A stretch of DNA of 48,375 nt. It comes from an uncultured Clostridia bacterium (GTDB lineage: Bacteria; Bacillota; Clostridia; Christensenellales; Borkfalkiaceae). The position numbers and the translations under genes were made by a program. The notes under the pieces are model-generated. The model saw only the letters and a list, made by a program, of their open reading frames with translations. It was not told the DNA's origin and ran no database searches. Where the stretch lies: NCBI GenBank assembly GCA_947630115.1, contig CANRGG010000013.1:1-48375 (forward strand). The letters are read 5' to 3'. Below, one piece after another: positions 2,739 to 23,038 of this stretch. Each line of letters begins with the position of its first letter. Positions within the stretch are counted from its first letter, which is position 1.

Positions 2739-3239
2739 TTAAAATACTTTTTCGAGCGGTTGCCAATGGTCGTCTGCCATATCCATTGCAAAAACCGTAT
2801 TGTTGATATAGAGCCGATTATCCTTATCGCGGACAAAGCCCCAATGCAGTCCTTTCTCCTGCGCATACTTCTTGAAAGCATTGAATTTGTTTTCAATTTG
2901 AATGTCAACGTTTTTATTCTCGCCTCTACTCTCGCCGCCTTTGGTTTCAATCACCCAAACCGTGCCGTCTTTCATCTTGATAATATAATCGGCATAGAAA
3001 AGCCATTGATGGCGGAGTGCGTCGATATAGACAATGGAGAAATATTGTTGTCCCGAATCGCCGTTTTTATAGACCCAATCAATATCTTCGCGCTTTTCGC
3101 AGTACTGCTCAAAGAGCATTTCCGAAGTACTGCGCACGACGCTCGTTGCAAACCCCGAAGTATAGCCCTCATAGGCGTTGCTCAAATAATCGACTTCGTT
3201 CTTAACGCCCGTATCAAACCATGCACATACCCATTTTAG
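2739..3239 (-). pseudogene. Type III restriction (Res) subunit, C-terminal fragment
   Basis: The frame reads WFDTGVKNEVDYLSNAYEGY, then SEMLFEQYCE, WVYKNGDSGQQYFSIVY and a nuclease motif with Asp66, Glu80 and Lys82 (DYIIK...VIETKG, counted from a TTG at 3185). That is the PD-(D/E)xK endonuclease end of type III Res helicase-nucleases, which normally exceed 850 residues. Conserved sequence continues upstream to ~3236 and then stops abruptly at the end of the vWA gene, so the helicase part has been deleted. It is not expected to cleave DNA, since the ATP-driven motor is absent. Confidence 0.7.
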
Positions 3240-6085
3240 CCTGCGTTTTGGACGTTTTCGCCACTGTTATCCGCTGCATTATCCACTCCGTCTGAAGCGT
3301 GGGTTAAGCGGGCGAAGAGCTTCTTAAGGAAAGTGAACTTGAACTTACGGAGTGCGATGTCGAGCAGGAAGAGGCAGAGCGCAATGGAGATAAGGATTGG
3401 GCGCGGATCGAAGGTATGGGTGCGGATTTCCACCCTGCCGAAGAGTTCGCCCGCCTTGGAAATAAGCTTCTCCTCGCCCTCGACGTCCGTCCTCGATGAT
3501 ATCGCGATGAGAAGCGTTCGACCATTCTCGAAGGGGTCGTTGGACGGGTCGTACTCGGCTGAATACGAGAAGACTCTGTAGGTATGGAGCGCCGAGAACA
3601 CGTCGTCGTCAGGTACGTCGGACGCCTTACTTATCCCCGAAATGTTGAGCGAGCGGGGCACTTTCATCACAGTGATGTCGTAAACGCCCGCCGCGCGGTT
3701 CTCGAACTCGAAGCGATTGCCGTCCATCGAGATCTCGCTCAAGTCGAACTTTGCGACCTCGCCCCCACTCGGAGCCTTGACGAACGCGACGAGCTTTTTG
3801 TCGCTCTCGATTTCGCTGTCGAAGCCGTAAATGCTGCCACGTGTATGGTAATTGTCCTCGGTGAACTCGACATTGAGGTCGGGCGTAGTGGTGATACCGA
3901 CGGGCATAAGCGACGAAGCGATATTTCCGATAATCTTCTTGCCGACGTCGCTCTTTATGAAATTATCCGACCAATAGCCGTAGAGGTCGCTCGTGAAGCT
4001 GCCCACTTTGCCCTCGCCGTACTTCCACTCTGCGTAAAGCGGAACGAGGTTGGCGCGTAAAACGACGGTCGCCGCTCCCTTCGCCATGGTGGAAAGCACG
4101 CCGTTCATAGAAATTCGTTCGAGCGCCTGTGTGTCGACGCCGTCGAGCGCGGACGAAGAAGTGCCGACACGGGGTGTGAATTTCTCGGTCAGAGCGCCGC
4201 TGTACTTGTCGACGCCAAGCTCGCTTTTGAGTATCCCCGACATAGAGCGAATGTCCGACTTGCCCATCTGGTGGCACTGATTGCCGCAAACGCCCGCGAG
4301 TCCCGAGGTAAGTTGCGAATTGACCGCGACCTCGGTGATGGTGATTTCGTCCTGCTGATAGGCATTGCGCATGATGTTAAGGTAGTCTCTCGTGCTGTCG
4401 TTGGGATTGCCGTTCGAGATGAAGAGGATGTGTTTGCGTTGGACGTCGGGCACTGCCGCGAGCGACATACAAACGTGCTGGAGCGTGTCGGCGTAGTTGG
4501 ACGAGCCTGTGAAGCCCTCGGCAGCCGCGCAAATCGCGTCCTCGACCTTTCGGCGTTCGGTCATCGGGGTGAAGCCGAGCGTTTCGTCGAAGGTGTAGCG
4601 AAGCACGGTGACCGCCACGAGGTCGCGCGGCGTGAGTGCGGAAAGCGCCTCGAGAGCGAGCGGAATGGCGATGTCCATGTTGCAATCGCCGTCGTCATCC
4701 ATCGCCTGCGAGCGGTCGATAACGATAGCGAGCGCAACGGGCGGGGTGAAGTCGGACGCTTGCACGGGCAGCATCTTCTGAAGGAGCGTGCCCTTCATGT
4801 CGAGGTCATATGAGTGCGGCTTGGGCACGGTTTCGCCCTTCTCGTCCTCGATCGTGACCACCTTGCCGCTGCTGTCCCGTTCGACGCCGCCCACGGTAAA
4901 CAGTCCGCCGCCCTTCTCGTGTACGAAGTCGTTAAGGAGTTCGTCGAAGCCCTCGGGAAGGTCGCTCGGAGCGATGTTGACGAGGATCACCTCGTCGTAA
5001 TTCTCAAGTTCGGTCGCGTCAAGGGGCGCTTCGTCCGCCGAAATGACCGTGATGTCGAGTCTGTCGGACGAACGCGACTTGAGGATATCGACGATCGTGT
5101 CCGATTCGCCCTTGTACTTTTCGATGACGAGGATTTTGTCGTAGCTTTCTATATTATAGTAGGTATAGTAGTCGTTGTTTTCGCCGATTTGGTCGTCCGC
5201 GCCACCAATCGTAAACTTCATTTCGTGGTGCCCGCCGCTTGCGAAGGCGTACTCAAATCCGATGGTCTGATCGCCTATTCGGACGGGGTTGTTCTTCGTC
5301 GAATAGATCTCCTTGCCGTTATCGGTGACGGTGAGATCGACCGCGCCCGTAAGCGAACTATATATGGACACGTCTATATGAAAACTCTCATCTACGGCGA
5401 GGCGTTTATCGGGGAAAGTGACCGCCGTTACGCGTGCGTCCGGCTCGAACTCAGTCGGAAAAAAGGTCGTGTCAATCCTTATGCCGTCGAGCGTAATGAG
5501 CTTCGCGACGTTGAGCGCCTCGCGGTCGGTCTGAAGTCCGTCGCTGATCAGCAAAATGCGCGCCGTGTCGGGTTGAGTGATGAGTCCCTCGGCGCTCGTG
5601 CCCGTGACGGGGTCCCACGCGAACGAAAGTGCGGAGTAAATGTCAGTCGCGCTGTCGTCGGGTTGCTCGCCGCTGATGTACCCTTGATAGGCTTCTTCGG
5701 CGGAGTAGCTGCCCATGGGGACGGCAATCTTCTGGTCGTAACCGAACTTGACGAGGGCGACGGAACAGCCTTCCTCGTCGTTGGCTTCAAGCACGTCCTT
5801 AATGAACTTGTCCGCTCTCTTCCTCGCATAGCCCGAGGTGTACGACGCATCGGCGAGAATGACAAGCTCGCTGTCGTAAATCTTCTCCTCCTGCTTGAAC
5901 GTTATGCCGGTAAGCGCCGTCACGCAAAGTATGATGACAAGGCAATGAATAATGACCGAGGCGATCCTGTTCTTCATGGAGTAAAAGCGTTTGCCCGTCT
6001 TGAAGAACAGAATGAGGGTGAACGCGATGAGCGGGATTATGAGAAGAAACAGATACGGACTTACGGTAAAATCTACTGACTTCAT
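3236..6085 (-). CDS. Large membrane protein with two vWA-type domains (cluster 1)
   Basis: A 949-residue protein. Two N-terminal membrane helices (~10-28 and 40-60) are followed by a vWA-like domain (~73-215), a beta-sandwich segment, a glutamine-amidotransferase-like segment (~316-405, ending KGGGLFTVGG), a second vWA domain (~450-620) and a C-terminal helix (PRPILISIALCLFLLDIA) before a basic tail. The MIDAS motifs are damaged: DASYT at 79-83 and DRSQA at 457-461 instead of DxSxS. The start at 6085 has GAGGTG seven bases upstream; a longer frame to 6160 would overlap the BatA gene. It is the last gene of its operon and a paralogue of the protein at 14615-17482. Probably part of an envelope complex; exact role unknown. 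Confidence 0.8.
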   Translation of the reverse strand: MKSVDFTVSPYLFLLIIPLIAFTLILFFKTGKRFYSMKNRIASVIIHCLVIILCVTALTGITFKQEEKIYDSELVILADASYTSGYARKRADKFIKDVLEANDEEGCSVALVKFGYDQKIAVPMGSYSAEEAYQGYISGEQPDDSATDIYSALSFAWDPVTGTSAEGLITQPDTARILLISDGLQTDREALNVAKLITLDGIRIDTTFFPTEFEPDARVTAVTFPDKRLAVDESFHIDVSIYSSLTGAVDLTVTDNGKEIYSTKNNPVRIGDQTIGFEYAFASGGHHEMKFTIGGADDQIGENNDYYTYYNIESYDKILVIEKYKGESDTIVDILKSRSSDRLDITVISADEAPLDATELENYDEVILVNIAPSDLPEGFDELLNDFVHEKGGGLFTVGGVERDSSGKVVTIEDEKGETVPKPHSYDLDMKGTLLQKMLPVQASDFTPPVALAIVIDRSQAMDDDGDCNMDIAIPLALEALSALTPRDLVAVTVLRYTFDETLGFTPMTERRKVEDAICAAAEGFTGSSNYADTLQHVCMSLAAVPDVQRKHILFISNGNPNDSTRDYLNIMRNAYQQDEITITEVAVNSQLTSGLAGVCGNQCHQMGKSDIRSMSGILKSELGVDKYSGALTEKFTPRVGTSSSALDGVDTQALERISMNGVLSTMAKGAATVVLRANLVPLYAEWKYGEGKVGSFTSDLYGYWSDNFIKSDVGKKIIGNIASSLMPVGITTTPDLNVEFTEDNYHTRGSIYGFDSEIESDKKLVAFVKAPSGGEVAKFDLSEISMDGNRFEFENRAAGVYDITVMKVPRSLNISGISKASDVPDDDVFSALHTYRVFSYSAEYDPSNDPFENGRTLLIAISSRTDVEGEEKLISKAGELFGRVEIRTHTFDPRPILISIALCLFLLDIALRKFKFTFLKKLFARLTHASDGVDNAADNSGENVQNAG

Positions 6086-6092
6086 ACTCACC

Positions 6093-8051
6093 TCAATAAC
6101 CCGACAAGAATTGCAGCAGCCACTCGAGCACGAGAAGCACGAGAAGCGCCGCTGCGACATAGACGAAGAGATCGGTCGTAACTTCGCCGTAAACCACCCT
6201 GTTAATTACAGCATTATAATCGGAAACGTTAAATATAGAGCTACATTCGCTCGGAACCTTGACGAAAAGCCTTCGCACCTCGTCGTCGCGCTTCATATCG
6301 AACTTGGTCGTCACCGTGTAACTCCCGTACCCTTTGAGCGCGAACTGCTCGGGGAAGGTATTGAGCACGGTGTCGTTCCCCTCGGGGTCGGTAACGGTGA
6401 GGTCGGAGCCTTTGCACATGATCTTTGCGCTCTCCCCCACTTCGTATAGACACCTGTCCGTCGTAACGGGCATGTAGTAGTTAAGGACGTTGTAGAGGAA
6501 GATGATGAAGTCCCAGGTGAAAAAGGACGAGCGATTGATGTTGAAAGGCATAACCACCGTTTTGTGCGTCGGAGTGTTGCGTGCGAGGATCATCGGACTC
6601 CCTTGGCAGAAGATGAGCGGAGTGTAAGCGTCCGAATAGTTGTTGACGGTCGTGTATGCGGTAACGCCGATTCGTGAGGCGTTCATTACGTCGGTGAGCG
6701 GGTGCGGGTCGCCGAGCGTCATCGACGTGAGTCCGTTAAGCTGCACCCTTTTCCCGAGCCGAACGTCCATTCCGCTGACCGTCATGTCGGGGTCGGAGAT
6801 TATCACCAGTCCGTCGCTCGGAAGCCCGCTCTGAACAACGTCCTTCGGGAAGGAATGTTCGTATATGTATATATCATACCCCTTAAGTTCGGCGTCCTCG
6901 TCGTAACCCGCTTGCTCGAACGTGATGGTGCGGTTCATCTTCATTTCGTCCTTCATGATGTTGAAGGCAAGGAAGTAGAAGGAGTTGGGGTCGGAGCTGT
7001 AATATTGCACCTTAATTCTGTCCTTCTCGCCGCCGTAAACGGTGACCTCGTCGTCGCAATTAAGCGAATCGTTGAGGTCATCGAACCCTATCGTCACATG
7101 GTCGTAAATCGAGAAAATCCAGTTCACCGAGCCGCCGATGTCGGTGTCGGACGCGCGAATTTCAAACGACTTCTTGACTTCCATCGCGCCCATTTCGTCC
7201 GAAACGACGAACTCGACGGGAATGGCGAGCGAAAGGTCGCGCTCGTCCCCACCTATGCTCGCGCCGAAAATGCGGCAGTGCAGCGTCTCGGTGCGCGAAA
7301 TCTTGCCGTAAGCCGCGACTTCAACATGAAAGACGTACTCGCTGCCCGCATACCCCACTTCGCAGTTCGTAACGCCGATGTTCCACTCGCGGTCATAGTC
7401 CGAGAGCCGAACAAGCTCGACGCCGTTGCCCGTGATGCCGTATTCGGTGCCCGTGAGGACGACGGTCTTCGCGAGCGGATTGGCGTCCATTCTCGAACGC
7501 GCAAGTTCCATCGCCGCGTCTATGTCGCACTTGCCAAACGAGCACTTGGCTTCGGCGAGCGCGGTAACGACGTCGGAGTAGTTGTCCTCGGTCGCGCTTT
7601 CGATGAGGTAGTGCGGCTCGTCGTCCGCGAGAATGACGGAAAGCTTGCCGTTGCCGTTCATGAGCACGTCGTCGATCCCGAGCCTTATTTCGTCGATCGC
7701 GCGATCGAAACGTGTTTCGTCATAGCCGACATAGGTCGCCTGCATCGCCGCTGACGCATCGACCAAGTAAACCATTTCGGTTACGGGCGTTTCGGCGTTC
7801 TCGAGGTAGGCGTTGGGCTGTGCGAGAATAAGCGCACACGCTGTGAGCGCGAGCGCTTGCGATAGAAAGAGCAAGATGCTTTTGAAGGAGTCAAAAGGCG
7901 TTTTTTTGCAAAGTTTCAACGCCTCTTTCCAAATGTAAGTGCTCGTTATGACCTTCTCTTTGTACTGCGGCTTAATGACGTAAATTACGATCAGCACGAT
8001 AATTGCAGCGAGTCCGAGAAACCCTAACGGCACCAGCCACTTAAGCGCCAT
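6093..8051 (-). CDS. BatA-like membrane vWA protein (cluster 1)
   Basis: A 652-residue protein with the N-terminal BatA signature: a helix (LKWLVPLGFLGLAAIIVLIV), a basic cytoplasmic loop (STYIWKEALKLCKK) and a second helix (ALALTACALILAQP) leading into a vWA domain. The MIDAS motif reads DASAA (98-102), lacking the last serine of DxSxS, so metal binding is doubtful. A large extracytoplasmic region follows, and a final helix (LFVYVAAALLVLLVLEWLLQF) closes the protein. Ribosome site AGAGAGGTAG. It lies 7 bases before the large vWA gene and 12 after the Gly-rich membrane protein. Bat proteins occur in MoxR-vWA systems linked to envelope stress and protein assembly; the specific role here is inference. 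Confidence 0.8.
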   Translation of the reverse strand: MALKWLVPLGFLGLAAIIVLIVIYVIKPQYKEKVITSTYIWKEALKLCKKTPFDSFKSILLFLSQALALTACALILAQPNAYLENAETPVTEMVYLVDASAAMQATYVGYDETRFDRAIDEIRLGIDDVLMNGNGKLSVILADDEPHYLIESATEDNYSDVVTALAEAKCSFGKCDIDAAMELARSRMDANPLAKTVVLTGTEYGITGNGVELVRLSDYDREWNIGVTNCEVGYAGSEYVFHVEVAAYGKISRTETLHCRIFGASIGGDERDLSLAIPVEFVVSDEMGAMEVKKSFEIRASDTDIGGSVNWIFSIYDHVTIGFDDLNDSLNCDDEVTVYGGEKDRIKVQYYSSDPNSFYFLAFNIMKDEMKMNRTITFEQAGYDEDAELKGYDIYIYEHSFPKDVVQSGLPSDGLVIISDPDMTVSGMDVRLGKRVQLNGLTSMTLGDPHPLTDVMNASRIGVTAYTTVNNYSDAYTPLIFCQGSPMILARNTPTHKTVVMPFNINRSSFFTWDFIIFLYNVLNYYMPVTTDRCLYEVGESAKIMCKGSDLTVTDPEGNDTVLNTFPEQFALKGYGSYTVTTKFDMKRDDEVRRLFVKVPSECSSIFNVSDYNAVINRVVYGEVTTDLFVYVAAALLVLLVLEWLLQFLSGY

Positions 8052-8063
8052 ATTCTACCTCTC

Positions 8064-9608
8064 TTAAGGATCCAGTCCGTCGAGATACTTGTCAATGAGA
8101 TCTTTGATTTCTGGCGGGATGGAGTCGTCGTCTTGAAGATTTTCCTTGGAACTCTCGCCCATGCCGTCTTTATAGTCCGTCTTTCCGTCGATTACGGAAT
8201 TGTTGTTCTTGCTGCCGCCTTCTACGGGACCGCCCGTACTGCCCATGCCGCCCGTGCCGCCATCTTGCGCGTCGCCGCCCGTGATGAACTCGTTGTCGAG
8301 CTTTTCGTCGCCGATCGGAGGCTCGCCTTCGCCCATGCCGCCCTGACCTTCGCCGTCGCCCGCAGAACCCGAGCCTGGACCGCCCTGACCTTGACCGCCG
8401 CCGCCTGCGCCGCCCTGACCGCCTTCGCTTTCACCGCCCTGACCGCTCGAACCTTCACTGCCCTCGCCGTCTCCGCCTTCACCATGGCCGCCAATGCCTT
8501 CGCCGTCTCCGCCGCCACCATCGACTTCGGGTCCTTCGCCCTCGCCGAGATTGCCTTGGTTCTCGCCTTCACCGCCGAAACCGCCCATACCGCCTTGACC
8601 GGGCTGACCGCCCTCGCCGGTTTGACCGCCGATCTGACCATGACCGCCGTAGCCGCCACCCTGTTGCGGGAAATTGCCTTCGCCCATGCCGCCTTGACCT
8701 TCGCCGCCCATGCCACCTTCGCCTGGCTTGCTGTTTCCGCCGATGCCGTCGCCTTTCTCGCCCTCTTCGCCCTCATCGGGGTTCTCCGCGGGCACAAAAA
8801 TAGCTTCGACCGTCAAATCCTCGGTAACTTCCCAGTCGTAGCGCTCCGAATAAATATAGTCGTCGCTCCAGGCGTAAAATTCGTAGCCTTCAAACGCAAC
8901 GGCTTTCACCGTCTCCGCGTCCTCACCCTTCTTTATCCTCTGAACCGTTTCGCCGTCGATGTAGCCGCCGACCTCGTCGCGAACGAGGTAGGTGACCGTA
9001 ACGTACTCCGCTTCGGGATCCTCTTCGTCCGCATTGTCGGGATCCTCGAGATCCTCGTCGTCGTCCTTGTCCCCCTTATCTTCGTGGTTCGGGTCGTGAT
9101 CGTCAATCGAACTACTCGGTTTTTCGGGTAACGTGGCGGCATATACGCTGACCGCCGTCATGGACGAACTGAGCAAAAAGCTGACCGCGAGCAAAATGAT
9201 TGCCATGCGCGAAAAGTTGAATTTGAGGCTCTTGGCGCTTACTCTACTCAACTTGTTCTTCGCGTCCTCGCGCTGAGCCATCGCAATGTACGACTGATCC
9301 TTTTCTAACTCGCACATCGTGACTATGCGTTCCTCGAGTCCGAGCCTATCTATAAGCCGCGCCATCGTCGCCGTCGTCGGTCTATAGAGCGTAAAGTAGT
9401 ATATGGGTGCGGAAAAAACGAACGCTGCCGCGAGCGTGCACCCGCAGACCGTTAGGACTAAAACGAGCTTCGCGTGTAAAATAAGCACGACGATCGCCGC
9501 GGCAAACACCGCAATGAACGCCGTAATAAGCGCCGTTATCGCCGCCTTTGCGCACCCGATCAGCGCGAGTCTTCTGTAATACTTTTTAAATAGTTCATTT
9601 TTTCTCAT
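8064..9608 (-). CDS. Membrane protein with InlB-like repeat and Gly/Glu/Gln-rich tail (cluster 1)
   Basis: A 514-residue protein. Two helices (~22-47, 48-70) and a third (~152-175) flank a cytoplasmic segment with LIDRLGLEERIVTMCELE, recalling the N-terminus of DUF4175-type proteins found beside MoxR/BatA genes. After the third helix comes an acidic stretch, then a region like one InlB B-repeat (YLVRDEVGGYIDGETV to EDLTVEAIF), then ~160 residues of low-complexity Gly/Glu/Gln (GGMGGEGQGG type) and a more ordered acidic end with DSIPPEIKDLIDKYLDG. The paralogue is at 20407-21528, sharing the helices, the LDRxGLEER motif and the C-terminal pattern. The flexible tail may span the cell wall; that is inference. 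Confidence 0.7.
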   Translation of the reverse strand: MRKNELFKKYYRRLALIGCAKAAITALITAFIAVFAAAIVVLILHAKLVLVLTVCGCTLAAAFVFSAPIYYFTLYRPTTATMARLIDRLGLEERIVTMCELEKDQSYIAMAQREDAKNKLSRVSAKSLKFNFSRMAIILLAVSFLLSSSMTAVSVYAATLPEKPSSSIDDHDPNHEDKGDKDDDEDLEDPDNADEEDPEAEYVTVTYLVRDEVGGYIDGETVQRIKKGEDAETVKAVAFEGYEFYAWSDDYIYSERYDWEVTEDLTVEAIFVPAENPDEGEEGEKGDGIGGNSKPGEGGMGGEGQGGMGEGNFPQQGGGYGGHGQIGGQTGEGGQPGQGGMGGFGGEGENQGNLGEGEGPEVDGGGGDGEGIGGHGEGGDGEGSEGSSGQGGESEGGQGGAGGGGQGQGGPGSGSAGDGEGQGGMGEGEPPIGDEKLDNEFITGGDAQDGGTGGMGSTGGPVEGGSKNNNSVIDGKTDYKDGMGESSKENLQDDDSIPPEIKDLIDKYLDGLDP

Positions 9609-9668
9609 ATCTTTTTCCTCCTCCTTTTAGTTGAGACACGGTATATCATGAATTAGGGGTTAACTGTT

Positions 9669-11182: not shown

Positions 11183-12079
11183 TTACTTTACCACGCCCGT
11201 CTGCAACAATTTGCCAAACAGCACGCGCTCGATGGGTGTGTCGCACGAAACGCTGATGTAGGTCGCGCCCCGCCGCTTGCAGAAGTCGTCGATGTCCGTG
11301 AGGAAGTTGCGTAGCGCCTCTGCATAAGCCGCGAGCAGCTTCCTTCCGATACGCACCTTCATGTTGCGCGGATCGTCGAAAACGGTCGTTTCGGTGTCGA
11401 TGAGGTGCATCCTGCCGTCGTACGAGGGGTCGAGTTCCTCGGGCATCATCACCTGCAGGAGCAGCACGTCGCGGTGCTTGAATGTCAGGTAGTCGACCGC
11501 CTTCTTCCAACTGCTTTCGGTCAGAAAATCGGAGATTATCACCGTCAGTCCACTCCCACTGCCCGTGTCGGGACAGCGCGTAACGCACCTTTCGATGTCG
11601 ACGTCACCGTCGAAGTCGCACTCCGTGAGGCTACCCATCGCCCTGTAAAACGCGTTCTTCCCGACGATCGTGCCAAACGGGTTCTGTGCCTTGTCCCCTC
11701 GCATGAAGTTAAGCGACAGCCTATCCATGTTGTGCACCGTCAGGAACCCGAACGCCGCCGCAGCCACGATCGCGTACCGCGCCTTTTGCTCTTGGTCCTT
11801 GCCCATCGAACCCGAGCAGTCGAGAAAAATCTGCGTCTGCATCTGCCGCTCGTCCGTGAACAGGCGAAGGAAATGCTTTTCGAACCTGCCGTACAAATTC
11901 CAGTCGATCCTGCGGATGTCGTCGCCGAACTGGTATTCGCGGAAGTCCGCAAATTCCACCGTCTGTCCGTACGCCCGCACAACGTTCTTGCCACCGAAAT
12001 AGCCGTTCTGCGAGACGTTGAGCATCAGCGAAAGGGACTCGAGCCTGTTGAAAAACTCATCGTTAAGGGCAATTTTCAT
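11183..12079 (-). CDS. DUF58 domain (vWA-like) protein (cluster 1)
   Basis: A 298-residue cytoplasmic protein. The hallmark of DUF58 is seen at 50-61 (QFGDDIRRIDWN), followed by an intact MIDAS-type motif DCSGS (87-91). It lacks membrane helices. DUF58 proteins are partners of MoxR AAA+ ATPases and of BatA-like proteins, and are thought to help assemble or activate envelope complexes. Here no MoxR gene is nearby. It is 47 bases upstream of the LRR lipoprotein and 95 bases downstream of the repeat-bearing lipoprotein; AGGGGG provides the ribosome site. The paralogue at 19508-20410 is nearly identical through the FADFREY...GDDIR block. Confidence 0.85.
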   Translation of the reverse strand: MKIALNDEFFNRLESLSLMLNVSQNGYFGGKNVVRAYGQTVEFADFREYQFGDDIRRIDWNLYGRFEKHFLRLFTDERQMQTQIFLDCSGSMGKDQEQKARYAIVAAAAFGFLTVHNMDRLSLNFMRGDKAQNPFGTIVGKNAFYRAMGSLTECDFDGDVDIERCVTRCPDTGSGSGLTVIISDFLTESSWKKAVDYLTFKHRDVLLLQVMMPEELDPSYDGRMHLIDTETTVFDDPRNMKVRIGRKLLAAYAEALRNFLTDIDDFCKRRGATYISVSCDTPIERVLFGKLLQTGVVK

Positions 12080-14404: not shown

Positions 14405-14433
14405 ATTATAGCATACACAACCTATATAGTCAA
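14405..14433 (-). promoter_or_regulatory. Sigma-A promoter of cluster 1
   Basis: TTGACT (14428-14433), a 17-base spacer and TATAAT (14405-14410) read on the minus strand, about 45 bases before the lipoprotein start. No terminator is seen before 3236, so it may drive all six genes. Confidence 0.75.
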
Positions 14434-14584
14434 TATGGATAAAAAATTTTGAAGGGATAAAGTTTACATAATTTAGGGGGAGTGGATAAGGAGTAAATTT
14501 ATGAATGAACAGATACCAAAACTCCCCATGCAATCGACATAGGGGAAACAAACAACTTTGTTGCCAGATTGTATGGATTTCGTC

Positions 14585-14614: not shown

Positions 14615-17482
14615 CTATTCGGTGCTCACTTGGGATTTATTTTTCTTCTGCGCAAACAATTCGTGGAGCCACTTGAATCTAAACTTGCGTACCGCAACGC
14701 CGAGCAGCAACAGAATGATCGCCGCGGTAAACAGATAAATTCTCGGGTCGACATCTTTGACAAGCAGCTGGAAGTTATCCATGATGATGGCAGCGTCATA
14801 GACAAACTTCTCTTCCCCCTCAACGTCATCACGGGATGAGAGCGCAATCATGAGATTTTTGCCGTTTGTGAATGTTTCGCTCTCGGTGAGATACTCCTTT
14901 GAATAGGAGAACGCCCTGTATGTTTTGAGGGTGGCGCTGCCCGCACGCTCCGCCGCCGCGATGTCTTGCGCAAACGCGTTAAAAGAACGCGGCACTTTGA
15001 CAATGGTTATGGTATAGATCCCTTCGGCTTTATTTTCAAAGGTAAACCGGTTGCCGCCGGGCGATAGCTCGGACAAATCAAAACGCGCTATCATACCGCC
15101 CGTCGAGCCTTTGGGGTGCTCGACATATGCCACAAGCTTTTTGTCGGGCTCCTCCTCGCTGTCAAAGTTGAACACGCTCATTTGCGTTCGATAGTTGTCC
15201 TCTATCATCCTCGCTTCCAGTGTTTTCATGGCGATGTCCGATGTCGATATCAGTCCGAACACAATGTTCTCGACGAGCTTTTTCCCGCTTCCTTTTTCAA
15301 GCAGCGGTTTGCCCCACTCTCCGCTTAAATCGCACATATAGCTGCCAACCTTTCCCTTGCCGTATTTCCACTCGGCATATAGGGGCACATACTCGGCGAT
15401 CAGCGGGTTTTTGACATCGTTATAGCCCTTGAGCGCGGTGGTGAAGTAGCCTCCGAGCTTTATGTTTTCAAGCTCACTCTCGTTTACGCCGGCAAACGCG
15501 TCTGTATGCTCATTGATGGTAATATTGTACTCTTCTTTGATCGCGCCCGAGAGTTCCTCGTCGAAGTCGAGGTCCTCCCAGAAAAGATCGGGAAGTTCCT
15601 CGGTTGAGCCGAGGAAGTTGTGACACTTTGCGTTCAAATGCTGCTGATCCCGTTCGTTAATATGTCCGTTGCCCAATATCGCAACGGTCGTCGTGATATG
15701 CAAGTCTTGAACGCCGAGACTCCAAGGATAATAGGCGTCGTAACCATCGCCGAGGGCGGCGTCGGTTATGATAAGCATATGATGGCGACGGACATTTTTC
15801 GGAAGCGTTCTGAACGAACGCGCTGCCTCATAAAGCGAGTTGCGCAAATTGGTATTGCCGCCGTACATGTTGGCGATATCTCTGATTTTTTTCAGCACCG
15901 TGGGCTTCTTGGACATCGGCGTCATTTCAAGAGGCGTCTCGTACGTGTCGCCGATGATGGTTGCTCCCACATAATCTCTCGGCGAAAGTTTTTCCACACA
16001 GCTGAGGGCAGCATTCACCGCCTTGTCGATGAGCGAGCCGTTCTCATCCTCCTTTTCGGCCATGGAACCGGAGCAGTCGATGATGATCATCAGTCCCAGC
16101 GGAGGCTTATAGTCAATGACGTTGACGGGGAGCATTTCTTGCAGGATGGTGCCCTCCATATCCGCTTGATCATAGGCGTGTGGCTTTCCGTGCAAAAGAC
16201 CCGTCGAATCCTCGGTGTAAGTGTATTCGCCGTTCTCGTCTTTTTCGAGCCCCCCTACGGTGAACAGACCTCCGCCGTAGACGTCGACATAGTCTTTCAG
16301 GTTCTGCCAAAAGCTATTGTCAAAATCGCCGCTCGCGATATTGACGAGAATGATCTCGTCGTATTCCTGCATTTGGGGCAGCGTTTGGGGAATGTCGTCC
16401 CCTTTCTGCTTTGTCCGGATGTCAAGCGTCATTTTTCCCGAGGCAATTTTTTCTTGAAACAGTTCTTCCATGCCCGCCGACTCGCCCTCATACTGCTCGA
16501 TCACGAGGATCTTGCTTTCCTCTTCGAGGTCGAAATAGGTGTAATACACGTTGTTTTGAACGAGATGGTCCTCATCGCTTGTGAGGGTGAATTTCATCTC
16601 GTGGTGACCTGCCGAAGAAAAGACGTAATCATAGCTGATTGTAGTCACGCCGATCGGCAGCGTGCTCTGGATGGGAACGGGCGTGATGACCGTCTCTTCC
16701 TTCGTGTCAGTGAGAGAAAGGGTGACATTCCCCTGGATCGCGCTTCTCAGCTCGACCTGGAAGTTGACGTGGTCCCCGACATTAAAGCTGCGTTCGGGAT
16801 ACTTTACGCCCGAGATCCACATATCGGGCACCTGTTCGCTGCCGAAAAAGGTGGAGTCAATTCTCACGCCGTCCATCATGATCCTGCGGACGACCGACTG
16901 CGCCTGCTGGTCTGTCTCGATCCCGTCGCTGATGACGACGATCCTCGCCGACTCGGGGTTGGTGATGACGGGGATGTCGTCGCCGCTCGTCTCGTTTACC
17001 GGGTCCCAGCAGAAGGTGAGTGCGGCACAGATATCGGTGGCGGTGGTATCGTTGGGCGCGGGCGCATGAAGATAGGTCTCAAACGCCTCCTCCGCGTCGT
17101 ACATGCCGGGCTCCAAAGCGACTTTTTGGTCATAGCCGAAGGTCACGACAGAGGTCTTGCACCTTCCGTCGTTTGCGTCCAGAAGTTCGTATACGAATTT
17201 GTCGGCGCGCTCTTTAAGAGAGCCCGCGGAGAAGGAGGAGTCAACCAAAATGACCAACTCGTTGCGCTCATTGGGGAGCTCCCAGGAAAAATAGATCCCG
17301 GCGAGGGCGAAGATAGAAAGGGTGAGCGCCACGCAGTGCAAGACGAGTGCGGTAATGCGGTTGCGCGTGCGCCGGTACTCCTTTTTCAGTCTGAAATGGA
17401 GAATAAAGGGCACGGCAAGTGCGGGAATGAGCAACAGCAACAGCCATGGACTTACAGAAAATCTGATTGCGAATTCCGACAT
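14615..17482 (-). CDS. Large membrane protein with two vWA domains (cluster 2)
   Basis: A 955-residue paralogue of the protein at 3236-6085 with the same order: two N-terminal helices (~12-30, 44-65), vWA 1, a beta-rich segment with AGHHEMKFTL, an amidotransferase-like segment (~324-411, YGGGLFTVGG), vWA 2, and a C-terminal helix (IYLFTAAIILLLLGVA). Both MIDAS motifs are intact here: DSSFS (81-85) and DCSGS (469-473). The ATG at 17482 was chosen because AAGGAGG sits seven bases upstream; a longer frame would overlap the BatA gene. It is the last gene of its operon and is followed by a terminator. It probably binds a metal-dependent ligand outside the cell; partners are most likely the neighbouring Bat and LRR proteins. 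Confidence 0.82.
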   Translation of the reverse strand: MSEFAIRFSVSPWLLLLLIPALAVPFILHFRLKKEYRRTRNRITALVLHCVALTLSIFALAGIYFSWELPNERNELVILVDSSFSAGSLKERADKFVYELLDANDGRCKTSVVTFGYDQKVALEPGMYDAEEAFETYLHAPAPNDTTATDICAALTFCWDPVNETSGDDIPVITNPESARIVVISDGIETDQQAQSVVRRIMMDGVRIDSTFFGSEQVPDMWISGVKYPERSFNVGDHVNFQVELRSAIQGNVTLSLTDTKEETVITPVPIQSTLPIGVTTISYDYVFSSAGHHEMKFTLTSDEDHLVQNNVYYTYFDLEEESKILVIEQYEGESAGMEELFQEKIASGKMTLDIRTKQKGDDIPQTLPQMQEYDEIILVNIASGDFDNSFWQNLKDYVDVYGGGLFTVGGLEKDENGEYTYTEDSTGLLHGKPHAYDQADMEGTILQEMLPVNVIDYKPPLGLMIIIDCSGSMAEKEDENGSLIDKAVNAALSCVEKLSPRDYVGATIIGDTYETPLEMTPMSKKPTVLKKIRDIANMYGGNTNLRNSLYEAARSFRTLPKNVRRHHMLIITDAALGDGYDAYYPWSLGVQDLHITTTVAILGNGHINERDQQHLNAKCHNFLGSTEELPDLFWEDLDFDEELSGAIKEEYNITINEHTDAFAGVNESELENIKLGGYFTTALKGYNDVKNPLIAEYVPLYAEWKYGKGKVGSYMCDLSGEWGKPLLEKGSGKKLVENIVFGLISTSDIAMKTLEARMIEDNYRTQMSVFNFDSEEEPDKKLVAYVEHPKGSTGGMIARFDLSELSPGGNRFTFENKAEGIYTITIVKVPRSFNAFAQDIAAAERAGSATLKTYRAFSYSKEYLTESETFTNGKNLMIALSSRDDVEGEEKFVYDAAIIMDNFQLLVKDVDPRIYLFTAAIILLLLGVAVRKFRFKWLHELFAQKKNKSQVSTE

Positions 17483-17498
17483 ATGATCCTCCTTTCCG

Positions 17499-19511
17499 TT
17501 ATCTCCCCACGATATCGCGGTGTTGCAGCCAATACTCGACAAAGAGCAGTACGACGACGGAAACGGCGAACCAGAAGAAGATATCCTTCCCCATCTCTTT
17601 GACGTATTCGGAGTTCATGATCCTGAAATTAAGGTCCTCCATTCTGAACAAACTCGACTCGATGACGGGCGTCCTGACATAGGCCTTTCTCACCTCGTCC
17701 TCTTTGTTCAACGAAAAACGGGTCGTGAAAGTATAGGTGCCGATCTCGTCGAGGGGCACCTCGCCGGGGAACTCGGTGAGAAGAGAAACCGTTTCCCCGC
17801 GCATATTCTGGACGAGCAGCGAGGAACCCTTGCAGTTTACCGTCGCCTTTTCGCCGATCTCAAAGCAATACTGCGAAAGGGTGACCGGCATGTAGAAGTC
17901 TATCATGTTGCACATGAGAAAGAGGAAATCCTGCGGTCTTGTGGTGAGATTGGACATGTTTACGCTGAACGCCATGACGACGATCTTTGAACTGTGCCAA
18001 TTTCTCGCGAACAAGACGGGGTCGTCGCCGCAGTACATGACGGGCACAAATCCCGATTCGGGCGTCGCCTCGTACAGATCATAGGCGGAGACGCCCAACT
18101 CCTCCACCGAGACCCGGTTGGTGAGCATATGCGGCGAACCGTATGTGAGATTGGTAAACTTTCCGAGCGCTTTGTGCTCCTTGAATTCGAGGCCGAGCGC
18201 GGGACCGATCTCCCTCATCGCCTCCTCATCCGGGTCGAGCAATACGGTGATGCCGTCGTCCGGCAAACCTCTTTGCCCCATTTCCGCGATTTTCGAGGGA
18301 ACCGTGTGCTCATACAGGTAAATGTCGCTGCCGCTGCTCTTGGCGGCCTCCTCTCTGATGGTGGAGGTGAAGGTGACGTCGCGCGTGGCGGCAAATCGCT
18401 GCCCGACGGAGCTTATGCCGGAGGAAAAGAAGATATTTCTGTCCGATGTGTAGTGTTCGATGGCGACGCGGTCCCGAATGCCGCCGTAAACCATCATCGT
18501 GTCGTCGTCGGGCAGCGAGTCGTTCAGCCCTCTGAACTGCACGAGCACTTCCTCGAAATTTCCCACGACATTGTCAAGACTGCCGCCGATCGCCTCGTTT
18601 GTCGGGTCGACGACGAGATTGACATGCTGGATCAGCTCCTCGCCGTTGTCGTCCACGTTAAAACTGATGGGAATTTCGAGGGGATCCAGATCAAAAGCCC
18701 CGTCGCCGTTGTCGATCCCCTTGATTTCAAAATGGAGAACCGTGTCCATAGAGACCTTGCCGTAAGCTGCCACGTCCAAATAAAAGACATATTGGTTTTG
18801 CTCGTAAGAAGCGACGCAGTTATAAATTCCGACATTCCACTCTTTTTCCGGATCGGCGAGGTTGACAAACGTCACCGCGTCGCCCATATATCCGAGCTCC
18901 GTTCCCGAAAAGACGGTCACTTTCGCCGCAGGATTGTGCAGCACTCGATCCTCCGCCATCAGCATGGCGGCTTCGAGATCGGAACTGCCGTAGGTGCATT
19001 CCGCTTGTTCGAGAATGTCTATGACGTCCGAATAGCTGTGCCTGTCCGCGTCATCGACGATAAATTCGGGAGTCCTGCCCGCCAGAATGACGGAGATACT
19101 GCCGCCCTGCCGGATCAACACCTCGTCAACGAGCAGTTTCGTCTGATCGATTGCCCGTTTGAAGCGCGTTTCGCCCGTCGTCTTGACGAGTTTGCTGCGC
19201 ATGCTCGCGGACGCGTCTATCACGACAACGCGTTCGTTGCTCTCTTTGATGGTCTCTTCGGTCACAAGGTGAGGAGAGGCGATGATCAGGGCGCAGGCTG
19301 TGATCGCAAGCGCCTGCAAGAGAAAGATAAGCCAATCCCGGAACGGCTCGATGGGCATTCTTTTGCGGCGGTATTTTTGACTCCGGATCCACATAAAGGT
19401 GCTCGGCAAAAGCCGCCTTGTGTACTTCGGCCGTATAATGTAGATCACAACAAGAACGCCGATTCCTATCAACCCCAAAAAACCGAGGGGTACCAGCCAT
19501 TGAAGTATCAC
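17499..19511 (-). CDS. BatA-like membrane vWA protein (cluster 2)
   Basis: A 670-residue paralogue of 6093-8051. The BatA N-terminus is clear (LQWLVPLGFLGL helix, STFMWIRSQKYRRKR loop, QALAITACALIIASP helix). The MIDAS motif DASAS (99-103) is complete, unlike its cluster 1 relative. An extracytoplasmic region and a C-terminal helix (IFFWFAVSVVVLLFVEYWLQ) follow. The start is GTG and overlaps the stop of the DUF58 gene by four bases (GTGA), so the two proteins are made in step. In Bat systems DUF58 and BatA act together at the membrane. The first ~80 residues match cluster 1 much better than the rest, so the pair is an old duplication. Confidence 0.82.
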   Translation of the reverse strand: MILQWLVPLGFLGLIGIGVLVVIYIIRPKYTRRLLPSTFMWIRSQKYRRKRMPIEPFRDWLIFLLQALAITACALIIASPHLVTEETIKESNERVVVIDASASMRSKLVKTTGETRFKRAIDQTKLLVDEVLIRQGGSISVILAGRTPEFIVDDADRHSYSDVIDILEQAECTYGSSDLEAAMLMAEDRVLHNPAAKVTVFSGTELGYMGDAVTFVNLADPEKEWNVGIYNCVASYEQNQYVFYLDVAAYGKVSMDTVLHFEIKGIDNGDGAFDLDPLEIPISFNVDDNGEELIQHVNLVVDPTNEAIGGSLDNVVGNFEEVLVQFRGLNDSLPDDDTMMVYGGIRDRVAIEHYTSDRNIFFSSGISSVGQRFAATRDVTFTSTIREEAAKSSGSDIYLYEHTVPSKIAEMGQRGLPDDGITVLLDPDEEAMREIGPALGLEFKEHKALGKFTNLTYGSPHMLTNRVSVEELGVSAYDLYEATPESGFVPVMYCGDDPVLFARNWHSSKIVVMAFSVNMSNLTTRPQDFLFLMCNMIDFYMPVTLSQYCFEIGEKATVNCKGSSLLVQNMRGETVSLLTEFPGEVPLDEIGTYTFTTRFSLNKEDEVRKAYVRTPVIESSLFRMEDLNFRIMNSEYVKEMGKDIFFWFAVSVVVLLFVEYWLQHRDIVGR

Positions 19512-20410
19512 GTCACCCTCCTGTACAGCCCGATGTCGAGCAGTCTCTTGAACAGCATATCCTCTATGGGCACGCCTGTCGATACGGTGAGATAATCTAT
19601 GCCGAGTTTTCGCGAAAAGGTCTTGATCTCTTCCTGATATTCGTCCATCGCCTGAGAATACGCCGAGATCATCTGCTTGCTGATCCTGAGCCGCAAATGC
19701 CTGCCGTCGACAAGATGTTCGGTCTCCGAGTCAATGAGCTCCGATCTGCCGGTGAACGAGGGATGGATCTCGTCGGGCAGAAGCGTCTGAACGAGCAGCA
19801 CCTGATGAGCTTTGAAAGTTAAATAATTGACCGCCTTTTGCCAATCGTTGTCCGTGAAGAAATCGGAAATAATGACGCTGATCCCGTCGTTGCCGCCGAG
19901 CGCGGACATGGAGAGAATGGCGTCGCTTATTTTGGCGTCGCCATCGAATTTGATTTTCGCGAGGTTTTCGATCACCGAAAAAAAGGCGTTCTTCCCGACC
20001 AAATAGCCGAACGGATTTTCACACTTGTCCTCGTTGATCAGATAAAAACTGACCTTATCCATATTCCGTACGGCAAGATACCCGAATGCCGCGGCAACGC
20101 TGATTGCGTATTCCGCTTTTTCCCGGACCGCCCCCATCGAGCGGGAGCAGTCGAGAAAGATCCTGATGTGCATGCGGCGTTCATCGGTGAAGAGTTTGAT
20201 GAAGTATTTCCCGAAACGGGCGAAAAGGTTCCAATCGATTTTTCTTATGTCGTCCCCGAGAAGGTATTCTCTGAAATCCGCAAACTCAACCGTCTGGCCG
20301 TAGGACTTTATTCTGTGCGTACCGCCGAAAATCCCCATCAGACTCGATTTGAAATTGAGCGACAGCACTTCAAGCCGATCGAAAAATTCATCGTTGAGAA
20401 AATTTTTCAT
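19508..20410 (-). CDS. DUF58 domain (vWA-like) protein (cluster 2)
   Basis: A 300-residue soluble protein with the DUF58 block YLLGDDIRKIDWNL (49-62) and an intact MIDAS-type motif DCSRS (87-91). It overlaps both neighbours by four bases (ATGA with the upstream membrane protein, GTGA with BatA), the tightest coupling in the window. DUF58 proteins normally work with a MoxR ATPase, which is missing here as in cluster 1. The order differs from cluster 1, where DUF58 comes before the LRR gene; here it sits between the Gly-rich membrane protein and BatA. Confidence 0.85.
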   Translation of the reverse strand: MKNFLNDEFFDRLEVLSLNFKSSLMGIFGGTHRIKSYGQTVEFADFREYLLGDDIRKIDWNLFARFGKYFIKLFTDERRMHIRIFLDCSRSMGAVREKAEYAISVAAAFGYLAVRNMDKVSFYLINEDKCENPFGYLVGKNAFFSVIENLAKIKFDGDAKISDAILSMSALGGNDGISVIISDFFTDNDWQKAVNYLTFKAHQVLLVQTLLPDEIHPSFTGRSELIDSETEHLVDGRHLRLRISKQMISAYSQAMDEYQEEIKTFSRKLGIDYLTVSTGVPIEDMLFKRLLDIGLYRRVT

Positions 20411-21528
20411 TGATTGTTTTTCGAGTCCTCCATGAGCGTTTCGAGATATTTCAGAAGCATATCCTTCTCTTCTTGCGCAAGAGTATCGTCTTTTAAGATG
20501 GCGTCCTTCGCGGCCTCATAGTCGATCTCGTTATGGTAATCGGTGTTTCCGTCGATCACGGTGTTGTTGTCCTTTGCGGTCGAGCCGCTTGCGCCACCGC
20601 CGCCTTCCCCTTCGCCGTCTTGACCTTCGCCTTCACCGCCGCCTTCCCCTTCTTGGCCGTCGCCTGCGCCGCCGCTCTGCTGGCCGCCGCCCTGTTGGCC
20701 GCTGCCCGCGTTGCCGCCCTCTTGTCCGCCCCCTTCTTCCCCGGGACCGACAACAATTTCCTTGGCAAAGATCGCCGTCACGGAAAAGCTGGACATGACG
20801 TTTTGATCCTGCCGCTCGGCAGTGAAGACACCGTCCGACCAAAAGCTGAACACATAGCCCTCTTCGGGGATCGCGACGACCGCCTTGGCGCTGCCGCCTT
20901 TTTCAAACTCCTGAAAAAGCTCGCCTTCCACCCTGCCGTGCTCGCCCGCCTCGTAGAGTACGCTGACCTTCTCCTCTTCCTCATCGGGTTCCTCCGGATT
21001 TTCGGGGTCTTCTGGTTCTTCCTGTTCGACATCTTGGTGAGGCATTTGGATGATGTCTGCGGCAGAGAGCGTTGACAACGTCGTCATGGATACGCCGAGG
21101 ATCGTCGCCACCGAAATCAACACGACCGCGATCGTGGGCAGGACAAACCGTAAACTCTTGGGATTGACGCCTTCGAGCTTTTTTACGGCGTTTTCCCGCT
21201 GCATTTGCGCAATGTTCGAGTCGTCGTTTTCAAGCTCCACCATCGTGACCATGCGCTCTTCGAGCCCCTGCCTGTCGAGCGCCGATGCCATACTTTTTAT
21301 GGTTGGCTTAAACTTAAAGTGATACAGGAGCGGTGCGGCACATCCAATTGCGAGGACGACCGAACCGATCGAAATCCCGAGCACAACTCCCACGCTTAAA
21401 TCGAGAAACAGCATGATGAGCGCCACGAAAAAGTTTACGCCGAAACCGAAAATGACAGAAAGACAGATGGATTTCAAAATCGCGATTCGTTTTAACCGTT
21501 TGTAATATTTTTTGAAGATATCTTCCAT
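20407..21528 (-). CDS. Membrane protein with Gly/Gln/Glu-rich tail (cluster 2)
   Basis: A 373-residue, shorter paralogue of 8064-9608. It has two helices (~20-45, 48-70), the cytoplasmic motif LDRQGLEERMVTMVELE, a third helix (~128-150), an acidic Pro/Glu linker, one B-repeat-like segment (VLYEAGEHGRVEGEL to SFSVTAIF) and a ~70-residue Gly/Gln/Glu-rich stretch with GGQQGG and GEGEGQ words. The C-terminus (DTLAQEEKDMLLKYLETL) parallels the other protein's end. Ribosome site AGGAGG. It is second in the operon, 31 bases after the LRR lipoprotein. Its role is unknown; the family resembles the DUF4175-like component of MoxR loci. Confidence 0.7.
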   Translation of the reverse strand: MEDIFKKYYKRLKRIAILKSICLSVIFGFGVNFFVALIMLFLDLSVGVVLGISIGSVVLAIGCAAPLLYHFKFKPTIKSMASALDRQGLEERMVTMVELENDDSNIAQMQRENAVKKLEGVNPKSLRFVLPTIAVVLISVATILGVSMTTLSTLSAADIIQMPHQDVEQEEPEDPENPEEPDEEEEKVSVLYEAGEHGRVEGELFQEFEKGGSAKAVVAIPEEGYVFSFWSDGVFTAERQDQNVMSSFSVTAIFAKEIVVGPGEEGGGQEGGNAGSGQQGGGQQSGGAGDGQEGEGGGEGEGQDGEGEGGGGASGSTAKDNNTVIDGNTDYHNEIDYEAAKDAILKDDTLAQEEKDMLLKYLETLMEDSKNNQ

Positions 21529-21559
21529 CTTGCTCCTCCTTTAATTGAATTTGCAAATG

Positions 21560-23038
21560 TTATCCTTTATAGACCGCGCCTTCTTCCTCGATCGTTATGT
21601 TGTCTTTCAGATGGACGTTGTACTTGCCTAAACCGTAGTTCCAACAATCGCCCGCCCCCGTATTGCCGAGCATGCCGAACTTCCCAATGCTATCCCATTC
21701 CTCCTGAGTGCCGTCGAAATAGATATCTTTGAGCGCGGTTTCGACAAAGCAGCGCTGTCCGATGCTGTGAAGCCCCGCGCCCAAGTGAACTTCTTTGAGG
21801 TTGGAACACATGAAAAACACCTCGCGCTCCAGCGTCTCCGCCCCCATTAGAGAGACCGTTTCAAGACCTTTCATGCTTTGAAAGGTCTGATCTTCGACAA
21901 CCTTCACGCCGTTTGCTTTTATTTCTTTCAACTTATCGCACCCCTCAAAGGCGCGGATCCCGATTTCGGTGACCGAGTCGGGGATCGTCACACTTTCGAG
22001 TGAACTGCAGTTATTGAATACAAATTTTTTGATCCTTTCCGTGCCTTCGGGTAAATCTACCTTGGTAAGGAGCACTTCTTCTCCGGTCTCATTGAAGTAC
22101 AGATCTCCGCCCTTTATTAAGGGGGATCCCGAAAAGTCTATGGCCATCCAATCTTTTAAGTTATGCGCCACGACCTTTGTGATCGGGCAATGGAAGAACG
22201 CTTCGCCGTCCAACGATTTGATCGTGGAGGAAACATACAGGGTTTTCAGCGAAAGGCATTGCGAGAAGCAGCTCTTCGCCACATACTCGAGCCCCTCGGG
22301 AAATTTGACCTCTTCGAGGGCGCACCGATAAAAGGTTCTTGCGTACAAGTTTTTGAGCTGATTGGAGAGGGTCACCTTTTTTAGGCTCGAGCACTCCAAA
22401 AACGCCCTGTGATCCATGAAAGTGACCGAGTTTGGTATGACGATTTCCTGAAGCGAGGTGCAGTGGGCAAACGCCTCGTAGCCAATGACCTTGACAGACT
22501 CCGGGATATGAACGGTCGTCAAAGACTTCTCGTTTTTGAAACCGTAATCGTCTATCGCGGTGACGGCTACTCCTTTGAAGGTTGCGGGAATATCCAATGT
22601 TGTCAAACCTTTATGATTGCCGATCCCGATGGAATAGGTTGCCGAAGAGTCGTTTCCAAAGACCACAGTATACGAGAACCCATCCTCCCCGACGACCGTC
22701 TCGCCGATTCCGAATTCGTCATGCATCGGCTTACTGTCGTCAATGTCCGGCTCGCCTTCGCCAGACGATGAGCCCGTGCCATCCGACGGCTTTGTCGCAC
22801 CCGGGTCTACTGTACCCGTCTTTCTCGAATACCCGCACAGATGGCAGACGTCGTTTACAAAATTGTGTTTGTCTTTCCAATTGTCGCCGTTCTCGTCAGG
22901 GTCGCGCCAATGATATTCGGAGTCGTAATACCAAACTCCGTTATATCCCTCCGCTTCCGACTCTTTTTCGTTGCAAGAGGAGGCCGAGAACACCATGAGC
23001 GCTGCAATGAAGAGAAGTAAAATTTTTTTTGCCTTCAT
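21560..23038 (-). CDS. BspA-like leucine-rich repeat lipoprotein, first gene of cluster 2
   Basis: A 492-residue lipoprotein with lipobox SASSC (Cys22). The mature N-terminus carries the shared module in a shorter form (VWYYDSEYHWRDPDENG, then HNFVNDVCHLCGYS). A Ser/Gly/Pro linker leads to BspA-type LRRs from ~residue 150, such as FAHCTSLQEIVIPNSV and FEGCDKLKEI. It is the paralogue of 9669-11135 but comes first here. A promoter lies at 23209-23236 and AAAGGAGGG before the start. The 170-base leader contains a GC-rich hairpin. Likely anchored outside the membrane as a binding partner; the target is unknown. Confidence 0.8.
   Translation of the reverse strand: MKAKKILLLFIAALMVFSASSCNEKESEAEGYNGVWYYDSEYHWRDPDENGDNWKDKHNFVNDVCHLCGYSRKTGTVDPGATKPSDGTGSSSGEGEPDIDDSKPMHDEFGIGETVVGEDGFSYTVVFGNDSSATYSIGIGNHKGLTTLDIPATFKGVAVTAIDDYGFKNEKSLTTVHIPESVKVIGYEAFAHCTSLQEIVIPNSVTFMDHRAFLECSSLKKVTLSNQLKNLYARTFYRCALEEVKFPEGLEYVAKSCFSQCLSLKTLYVSSTIKSLDGEAFFHCPITKVVAHNLKDWMAIDFSGSPLIKGGDLYFNETGEEVLLTKVDLPEGTERIKKFVFNNCSSLESVTIPDSVTEIGIRAFEGCDKLKEIKANGVKVVEDQTFQSMKGLETVSLMGAETLEREVFFMCSNLKEVHLGAGLHSIGQRCFVETALKDIYFDGTQEEWDSIGKFGMLGNTGAGDCWNYGLGKYNVHLKDNITIEEEGAVYKG

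Follow-up and report, generated by a model that had tools for sequence, protein, structure and literature searches.

Tandem DUF58/BatA/vWA/LRR operons without moxR in an uncultured Clostridia bacterium: an amplified family and a possible shared MoxR ATPase

MoxR AAA+ ATPases are widespread, while the envelope role of their DUF58, Bat and von Willebrand factor A (vWA) partners is poorly known. We analysed a 48,375-nucleotide stretch from an uncultured Clostridia bacterium (contig CANRGG010000013.1, referred to here as the window, G000:C13:1-48375), which carries two neighbouring paralogous envelope operons, sets A and B, at 3236-23038 on the minus strand. Each of them encodes a DUF58 protein, a BatA-like protein, a large vWA protein, a glycine-rich (Gly-rich) membrane protein and a leucine-rich repeat (LRR) lipoprotein, and neither carries an intact moxR. 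Where, then, would an ATPase for these operons come from? The source metagenome-assembled genome (MAG), G000, comprises 1,612,884 bases in 54 contigs, with a completeness of 93.86 and a contamination of 1.05.

moxR in the source genome and in its relatives

We observed no intact moxR within the window in a profile search, which agrees with an earlier note, made from the sequence alone, that MoxR was missing from both sets. The same note had proposed a genome search for moxR, and had suggested that the ATPase was either encoded elsewhere or replaced. The search with PF07726 yielded one strong MoxR in G000 (C6:374-772, E 2.7e-62). It lies beside a third copy of the cluster, in the order (end of Gly-rich gene)-MoxR-DUF58-BatA-vWA-LRR, so that the first half of the suggestion was borne out. 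Replacement by another ATPase was unsupported: a single further AAA_3 match was obtained from the MAG (C5:66636), a weak one that Pfam assigns to Lon, and for the 728-aa lipoprotein leading set B Pfam gave no match at E 0.01.

Set A retains a stretch of ~136 bp before its LRR gene (~23060..23195, minus strand) that resembles the 3' end of moxR. When it was aligned to the last part of the moxR of locus L147, a relative of set A described below, the score was 69, as compared to a mean of 14.2 (standard deviation 5.5, maximum 38) for 1000 dinucleotide shuffles. Of 1930 placements in the window it ranked first, and those not overlapping it scored 40 at most.

The relatives were examined in 103 genomes of the genus (GTDB Ca. 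Gallimonas). MoxR, counted with PF07726 at E 1e-15, gave 64 rows in 61 genomes, and in 57 of these 64 a vWA gene followed downstream, within 8 kb and on the strand of MoxR (the remaining seven were on contigs without a vWA row). The vWA profile matched in 73 of the 103 genomes, and 69 were counted as having a cluster after short matches were dropped; exactly one cluster and one MoxR were present in 50 of the 69. Gene order was followed at named loci, the best 80 of 489 found through DUF58, of which the 69 with more than 900 bp upstream were testable for moxR. MoxR stood directly before DUF58 in 61 of them. A relative with a named strain, Anaerocaecibacter muris CLA-AA-M11 (L161), carries the operon in its form with moxR. 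The eight exceptions were L147, where moxR is two genes further up, and four loci of G112, two of G075 and HAN108, which had no MoxR.

L147 (from Lapin-021 bin90) has a DUF58 that is 89% identical to that of set A, and its order is trypsin-like protein (552 aa)-MoxR-LRR-Gly-DUF58-BatA-vWA. It is nested inside the set-A group in a tree of concatenated cluster proteins, which fits loss of moxR over gain. The earlier note had treated the absence of MoxR as a defining trait, and had named beforehand a moxR gene next to homologous clusters in close relatives as the observation that would speak against this. That is what we found, in the genus rows, in the named loci and in L147, and it leaves the claim unsupported. 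As moxR is present in the operons of relatives, the family is one that has moxR and the window copies are derived within it, and the state without MoxR is very likely a derived loss rather than a new kind of machine.

Some further observations were made at these loci. The first 77 nt of C6 (L019:1-77) are identical to the interior of a Gly-rich paralog on contig C24 (L042:13075-14160), which is then followed by a Beta_propel (PF09826) protein in place of moxR. An AT-rich leader of 22 nt precedes moxR in C6 (L019:190-215); an exact copy stands ahead of DUF58 where contig C38 ends (L021:10370-10400), and no further copy was seen in the other loci compared. In L147, a macro-domain/DarT toxin-antitoxin pair is found upstream of the cluster (L147:1217-3108).

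Amplification of the cluster and conservation of the moxR-less copies

Profile matches in G000 numbered 8 for DUF58, 9 for BatA and 9 for vWA, and defined nine clusters: window A, window B, C1, C3a, C3b (in which the Gly-rich gene is split into two open reading frames, ORFs), C19, C6, C23 and C38. One to three clusters were present in 66 genomes. Seven or more were seen only in G000 (nine by match), G112 (seven, one split over two contigs) and G075 (seven). In the tree of concatenated DUF58, BatA and vWA proteins (56 rows, 1820 columns), one clade of 27 rows with SH-aLRT/bootstrap support of 100/100 took in seven G000 clusters (A, B, C1, C3a, C3b, C19 and C6). The same clade included all G112 and G075 clusters, the set-A relatives, and the second-type clusters of G002, G008 and G016. 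C38 grouped beside G024, and C23 beside G079 and G092; since these two group with other species and may be mis-binned, we counted the G000 clusters as seven. They occupy ~64 kb, that is 4.0% of the 1.61-Mb MAG. The earlier proposal that an envelope machine with exported LRR partners has been expanded is thus supported, and the expansion is larger than the window shows.

moxR was missing from six of the seven G000 clade clusters. Most of these have moxR-less orthologs: window A in G112 C18, C1 in G112 C14, C3a in G112 C28/C73 and G075 C33a, C3b in G112 C4 and G075 C33b, and C19 in G112 C26 and G075 C4. The sole sister of window B was G075 C40, on a contig that begins inside BatA. Among the expanded genomes, G112 has two MoxR (C20 and C15) and G000 has one. 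The ratio of MoxR to clusters was about one in G119 (three clusters, three MoxR), G120 (two clusters, one of them in pieces, and two MoxR) and G121 (two clusters, three MoxR).

Could the missing genes be an artefact of assembly or binning? Two cluster contigs of G117 (C64 and C23; L141:1-60 and L142:1-60) start with the same 60 or more nt, encoding the MoxR C-terminus, which suggests that assemblies break at near-identical copies of moxR within one genome. Of 80 vWA rows outside the three expanded genomes, 54 had MoxR upstream and 26 did not, many of the 26 starting within a few kb of a contig start. Together with the G117 contig starts, this makes the moxR counts from MAGs lower bounds. G000 contigs C6, C23 and C38 also end at or near the moxR position, and the last two are those whose binning is in doubt. 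However, the contigs of sets A, B, C3a, C3b and C19 continue past both ends of the cluster, and that of C1 past the upstream end, with no moxR there, and moxR-less clusters of the same order are present in G112. We consider an artefact very unlikely as an explanation for the missing moxR genes, and unlikely for the window itself.

We further estimated the ratio of nonsynonymous to synonymous substitution (dN/dS) between orthologs. In the moxR-less copies it was 0.05-0.17 for DUF58, 0.10-0.22 for BatA, 0.08-0.20 for vWA, 0.10-0.19 for the Gly-rich protein and 0.12-0.29 for LRR. In a moxR-bearing copy (C6-G112 C20) it was 0.04 for DUF58, 0.20 for BatA, 0.18 for vWA, 0.22 for LRR and 0.09 for MoxR, and in the pair of window A and L147, the latter with moxR, 0.05-0.20. 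Judged by these ratios, the moxR-less copies are under purifying selection.

In a set of 75 MoxR-linked DUF58s, conservation reaches at least 95% at 84 positions. The moxR-less DUF58 proteins keep 79-81 of these in 12 of 13 rows (81 in set A, 79 in set B), and HAN108 keeps 76. MoxR-linked DUF58 rows of the same branch keep 91-94% (leave-one-out). Across 11 compared clusters, identity was 71-97% for MoxR, 49-94% for DUF58 and 31-71% for vWA. The MoxR proteins of G112 C15 and L147 share 85% identity and pair as sisters in the tree of MoxR (93.6/99), although their DUF58 and vWA proteins are only 51% and 40% identical. Nearly the same MoxR thus accompanies very different clusters.

Taken together, we lean towards a reading in which an envelope operon was amplified, moxR was lost from most copies, and the remaining MoxR is shared in trans. 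The ancestral operon of the lineage would have had the order (LRR protein)-Gly-rich membrane protein-MoxR-DUF58-BatA-vWA/GATase1-(LRR protein), and the window sets are two of at least seven paralogous copies that arose by amplification and rearrangement in one group of related species, with moxR very likely lost from most of them. Going by sequence comparison, the one or two MoxR ATPases left in the genome probably act in trans. A cytoplasmic MoxR hexamer would engage the soluble, vWA-type DUF58 adaptors, and through these its ATP-driven work would reach the BatA and vWA/GATase1 proteins anchored in the membrane. The extracytoplasmic vWA domains of the latter may then act on the LRR lipoprotein of the same cluster, in its maturation, its assembly or its display at the cell surface. 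The motor end would be shared and conserved, and the outer end copied and diverging.

Such a scheme has parallels, since MoxR/vWA pairs are described as remodelling their clients, and in NorQD a vWA finger enters the MoxR pore (PMC13036017). In its fullest form it would be a hub and spokes: one or two MoxR motors would power at least seven diverged DUF58/BatA/vWA/LRR machines within a single 1.6-Mb genome, multiplying the surface LRR displays, most machines having shed the motor gene and a few also DUF58. This may well be so, though we stop short of calling it probable. If one motor does serve all, MoxR specificity must lie in a short conserved DUF58 surface. The lineage also offers a natural experiment, the motor gene having been lost and the rest retained.

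Several observations weigh against this reading. G075 has seven clusters and no MoxR match in a MAG that is 93% complete, which could mean MoxR-independence. DUF58 is also missing from G000 C19, G075 C4 and G075 C33b, so the supposed adaptor would need sharing too. In set B the metal ion-dependent adhesion sites (MIDAS) of BatA (DASAA) and of the second vWA (DRSQA, S, N) are degenerate. The set A remnant is weak at the protein level (33 aa, E 0.80; no match at E 0.05), G112 has no moxR remnant at the equivalent place, and none was found at the other moxR-less clusters. The genome counts rest on MAGs, in which moxR copies can be missed.

The first three of these points would suit a different explanation, that the moxR-less copies need no ATPase, their DUF58, BatA, vWA and LRR proteins forming a passive surface scaffold or adhesin complex while MoxR serves its own cluster only. 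The G075 MAG is incomplete, however, and the DUF58 of the moxR-less copies keeps its MIDAS motif along with the conserved positions given above. DUF58 also has the lowest dN/dS in the compared sets (0.05-0.17), C1-G112 C14 excepted. We consider a scaffold of this kind unlikely.

LRR partners and comparison with known systems

About 23 ORFs with LRR_5 were present in G000 (a hand count from 108 matches), and ten of them were in, or adjoined, cluster genes. An LRR ORF was found inside each of the seven G000 clade clusters. Among the named loci, an LRR-profile match followed vWA in 58 of 65 that could be tested; of the other seven, five had an LRR-profile match upstream and two were cut by contig ends. 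The LRR profile takes in the lipoprotein N-terminus and labelled at least two proteins that are non-LRR by Pfam (the 728-aa protein of set B and the 552-aa trypsin-like protein of L147), so these counts could be slightly high. The type III clusters (G019, G014 and G021) had no LRR matches, and other secreted proteins were found there.

We found no report in the open-access literature searched of LRR-MoxR-vWA clusters, nor of MoxR or DUF58 tied to LRR/BspA proteins. The combination of LRR and vWA had been put forward earlier as undescribed. This holds for the searchable literature, but within the lineage the pairing is common, as the named loci indicate. The near-constant LRR lipoprotein partner offered by this lineage suggests a client or output, and the LRR lipoprotein may be the client of the machine, an assignment that we make tentatively from gene content.

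The nearest known systems are the MoxR-DUF58-Bat operons of the Bacteroides aerotolerance type, for example Borrelia bb0170-bb0176 and the Rhizobium cmd operon (PMC5700661). They also encode, in one operon, DUF58, a BatA-type protein with two N-terminal transmembrane (TM) segments and vWA, and a further vWA protein, and the likeness extends to the relatives of the window, in which moxR comes directly before DUF58. The window operons differ in lacking moxR, in the added GATase1-like/vWA protein and LRR lipoproteins, and in the many copies per genome. The BatD, TPR and SH3 partners of the Bacteroides and Borrelia type gave no Pfam match at E 0.01 in eleven cluster proteins.

Work on other bacteria ties Bat operons to oxygen tolerance and envelope integrity (PMC5700661). 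The clusters could be the usual MoxR/Bat envelope-stress (aerotolerance) machine, the LRR genes being co-transcribed passengers and not clients. The size and position of the LRR protein do vary between cluster types, and the type III clusters carry other secreted proteins instead. Against this stand the LRR-profile matches after vWA in most of the testable named loci, and the LRR gene inside seven of seven G000 clade clusters in a MAG with some 23 such ORFs in all. We find this explanation doubtful.

NorQ/NorD and other MoxR AAA+/vWA pairs provide the model of a MoxR hexamer working on a client via a vWA partner (PMC13036017). Among the scanned proteins no nor genes were seen, and the partner here is DUF58 plus membrane vWA proteins; the mechanism is drawn by analogy. 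The window LRR proteins resemble BspA-type LRR (LRR_5) surface proteins in their LRR_5 repeats, and have a putative lipobox-type signal, read by eye; they differ in being encoded within operons of the MoxR/DUF58/vWA family.

We also evaluated the MoxR-vWA ternary conflict systems of multicellular prokaryotes (Kaur et al. 2020; PMC7159879), which share a MoxR and vWA core and occur as several paralogs per genome, as here, with up to six paralogous VMAP systems reported in a genome. An immunity function could be imagined, since these parts are in common and the clusters multiply within genomes. The window operons nevertheless lack MoxR, a VMAP/iSTAND third component and effector domains, in place of which they have parts for the membrane and the surface. 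Pfam showed neither a VMAP-like third component nor an effector domain. PADLOC, run at E 0.01 on nine window proteins (the set A LRR protein was left out), matched none of them, MoxR itself having only weak AAA matches. Moreover, the paralogous VMAP systems each retain their own core set, as far as they are described there. A conflict system is thus highly improbable.

Architecture of the two operons

The two adjacent paralogous sets were confirmed at 3236-23038, each ending in the vWA gene. The core proteins of sets A and B are 51% (DUF58), 40% (BatA) and 41% (vWA) identical, indicating that they are diverged paralogs and not assembly doublets. Five paralogous genes per set had been described, and five are present in each; the gene order differs, however, and set B has a sixth gene. 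Set A is transcribed in the order LRR-Gly-rich-DUF58-BatA-vWA, and set B as 728-aa lipoprotein-DUF58-LRR-Gly-rich-BatA-vWA. All the features given below are on the minus strand.

Set A begins with the BspA-type LRR lipoprotein (492 aa, 21560..23038; Pfam LRR_5 E 1.2e-56, lipobox by eye), followed by the Gly-rich membrane protein (373 aa, 20407..21528; Flg_new_2 E 2.5e-8), whose family is conserved across the lineage. Next are the DUF58 protein (300 aa, 19508..20410; DUF58 E 1.2e-31, MIDAS-like DCSRS, no TM by eye) and the BatA-like protein with a BatA N-terminus and vWA (670 aa, 17499..19511; BatA 1.6e-7, VWA_2 1.4e-10). The large vWA/GATase1-like/vWA protein, assigned by Pfam, PDB profile and alignment, closes the set (14615..17542, likely start 17482). 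Spacing is tight, with gaps of 31 and 16 bp, the latter taking 17482 as the vWA start, and two 4-bp overlaps.

Set B is led by the 728-aa lipoprotein (12175..14361), which has an N-terminal region in common with the set B LRR protein. It is followed by the DUF58 protein (298 aa, 11183..12079; DUF58 E 5.2e-30, DCSGS), the LRR lipoprotein (488 aa, 9669..11135; LRR_5 E 3.2e-63) and the Gly-rich membrane protein (514 aa, 8064..9608). The BatA-like protein (652 aa, 6093..8051) matches BatA at 2.4e-8 and VWA_2 over the cut-off, and the final Ser of its MIDAS is Ala. The large vWA/GATase1-like/vWA protein (3236..6160, likely start ~6085; Pfam) has lost the MIDAS residues of its second vWA. The 728-aa protein was considered as a homolog of the first gene of cluster C1 and rejected, as only a signal/His-Cys stretch is in common (E 0.005). 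A 36-bp tandem repeat of 6.6 copies (13895-14133) encodes PGEGENPGGEQT-type repeats in it.

A promoter-like site lies ahead of each set: TTGCAA-16-TATCAT, with TG before, at 23209..23236 for set A, and TTGACT-17-TATAAT, a strong site with TG before and 11/12 matching, at 14405..14433 for set B. A weak terminator-like hairpin is found between the sets (14524..14544). The promoter-like and terminator-like sites ahead of set B make A and B look like two transcription units. Promoter-like sites were more numerous than expected from shuffles (19 found, 10.1 expected), and terminator-like sites were no commoner than in shuffles (11 found, 16.4 expected). The promoter-like region of set A (23194-23257) has 78% identity over 67 nt with the matching place in G112 C18. 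No ORF from the window flanks matched the flanks of set-A relatives or of the other cluster loci searched.

Both large proteins have two vWA stretches by Pfam, in keeping with their earlier description as double-vWA proteins, to which a putative GATase1-like domain flanking the second vWA can be added. The C-terminal part matches GATase1_like below the Pfam cut-off (E 1e-3 and 7.5e-5). The stretch before the second vWA matches 3soz (E 2.7e-6) and 2gk3 (E 3.4e-5) in a PDB-profile search, both of which we take to be GATase1-like structures. The large protein seems to consist of a vWA followed by a GATase1-like domain with the second vWA inserted. Its first vWA has an intact MIDAS in both window copies, the set A BatA has a complete one by DxSxS, and DUF58 keeps DxSxS in 48 of the 48 rows having DUF58.

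By eye, DUF58 (~300 aa) has no hydrophobic stretch, and in BatA a vWA lies between a pair of TMs at the N-terminus and one at the C-terminus. TMs are likewise seen at the N-terminus of the Gly-rich protein, which also has an InlB B-repeat-like domain and ends in a Gly/Glu-rich tail of low complexity. Weak DUF4175 matches were seen in 9 of 24 members of its family (best E 8e-4, below the cut-off where bits were given), the set A member having none. The positive-inside rule, again applied by eye, would place DUF58 in the cytoplasm and the vWA and LRR parts on the outside. The window LRR proteins have a signal peptide and lipobox Cys by the same kind of reading, and the best NCBIfam match of the LRR protein is the LRR adhesin HupY/LrrG, far under the cut-off.

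Elsewhere in the window, a tandem repeat of 172 bp (2.8 copies) lies at 41246-41726, and one of 123 bp (3.7 copies) at 42907-43359, within a 474-aa ORF that has no Pfam match over the cut-off.

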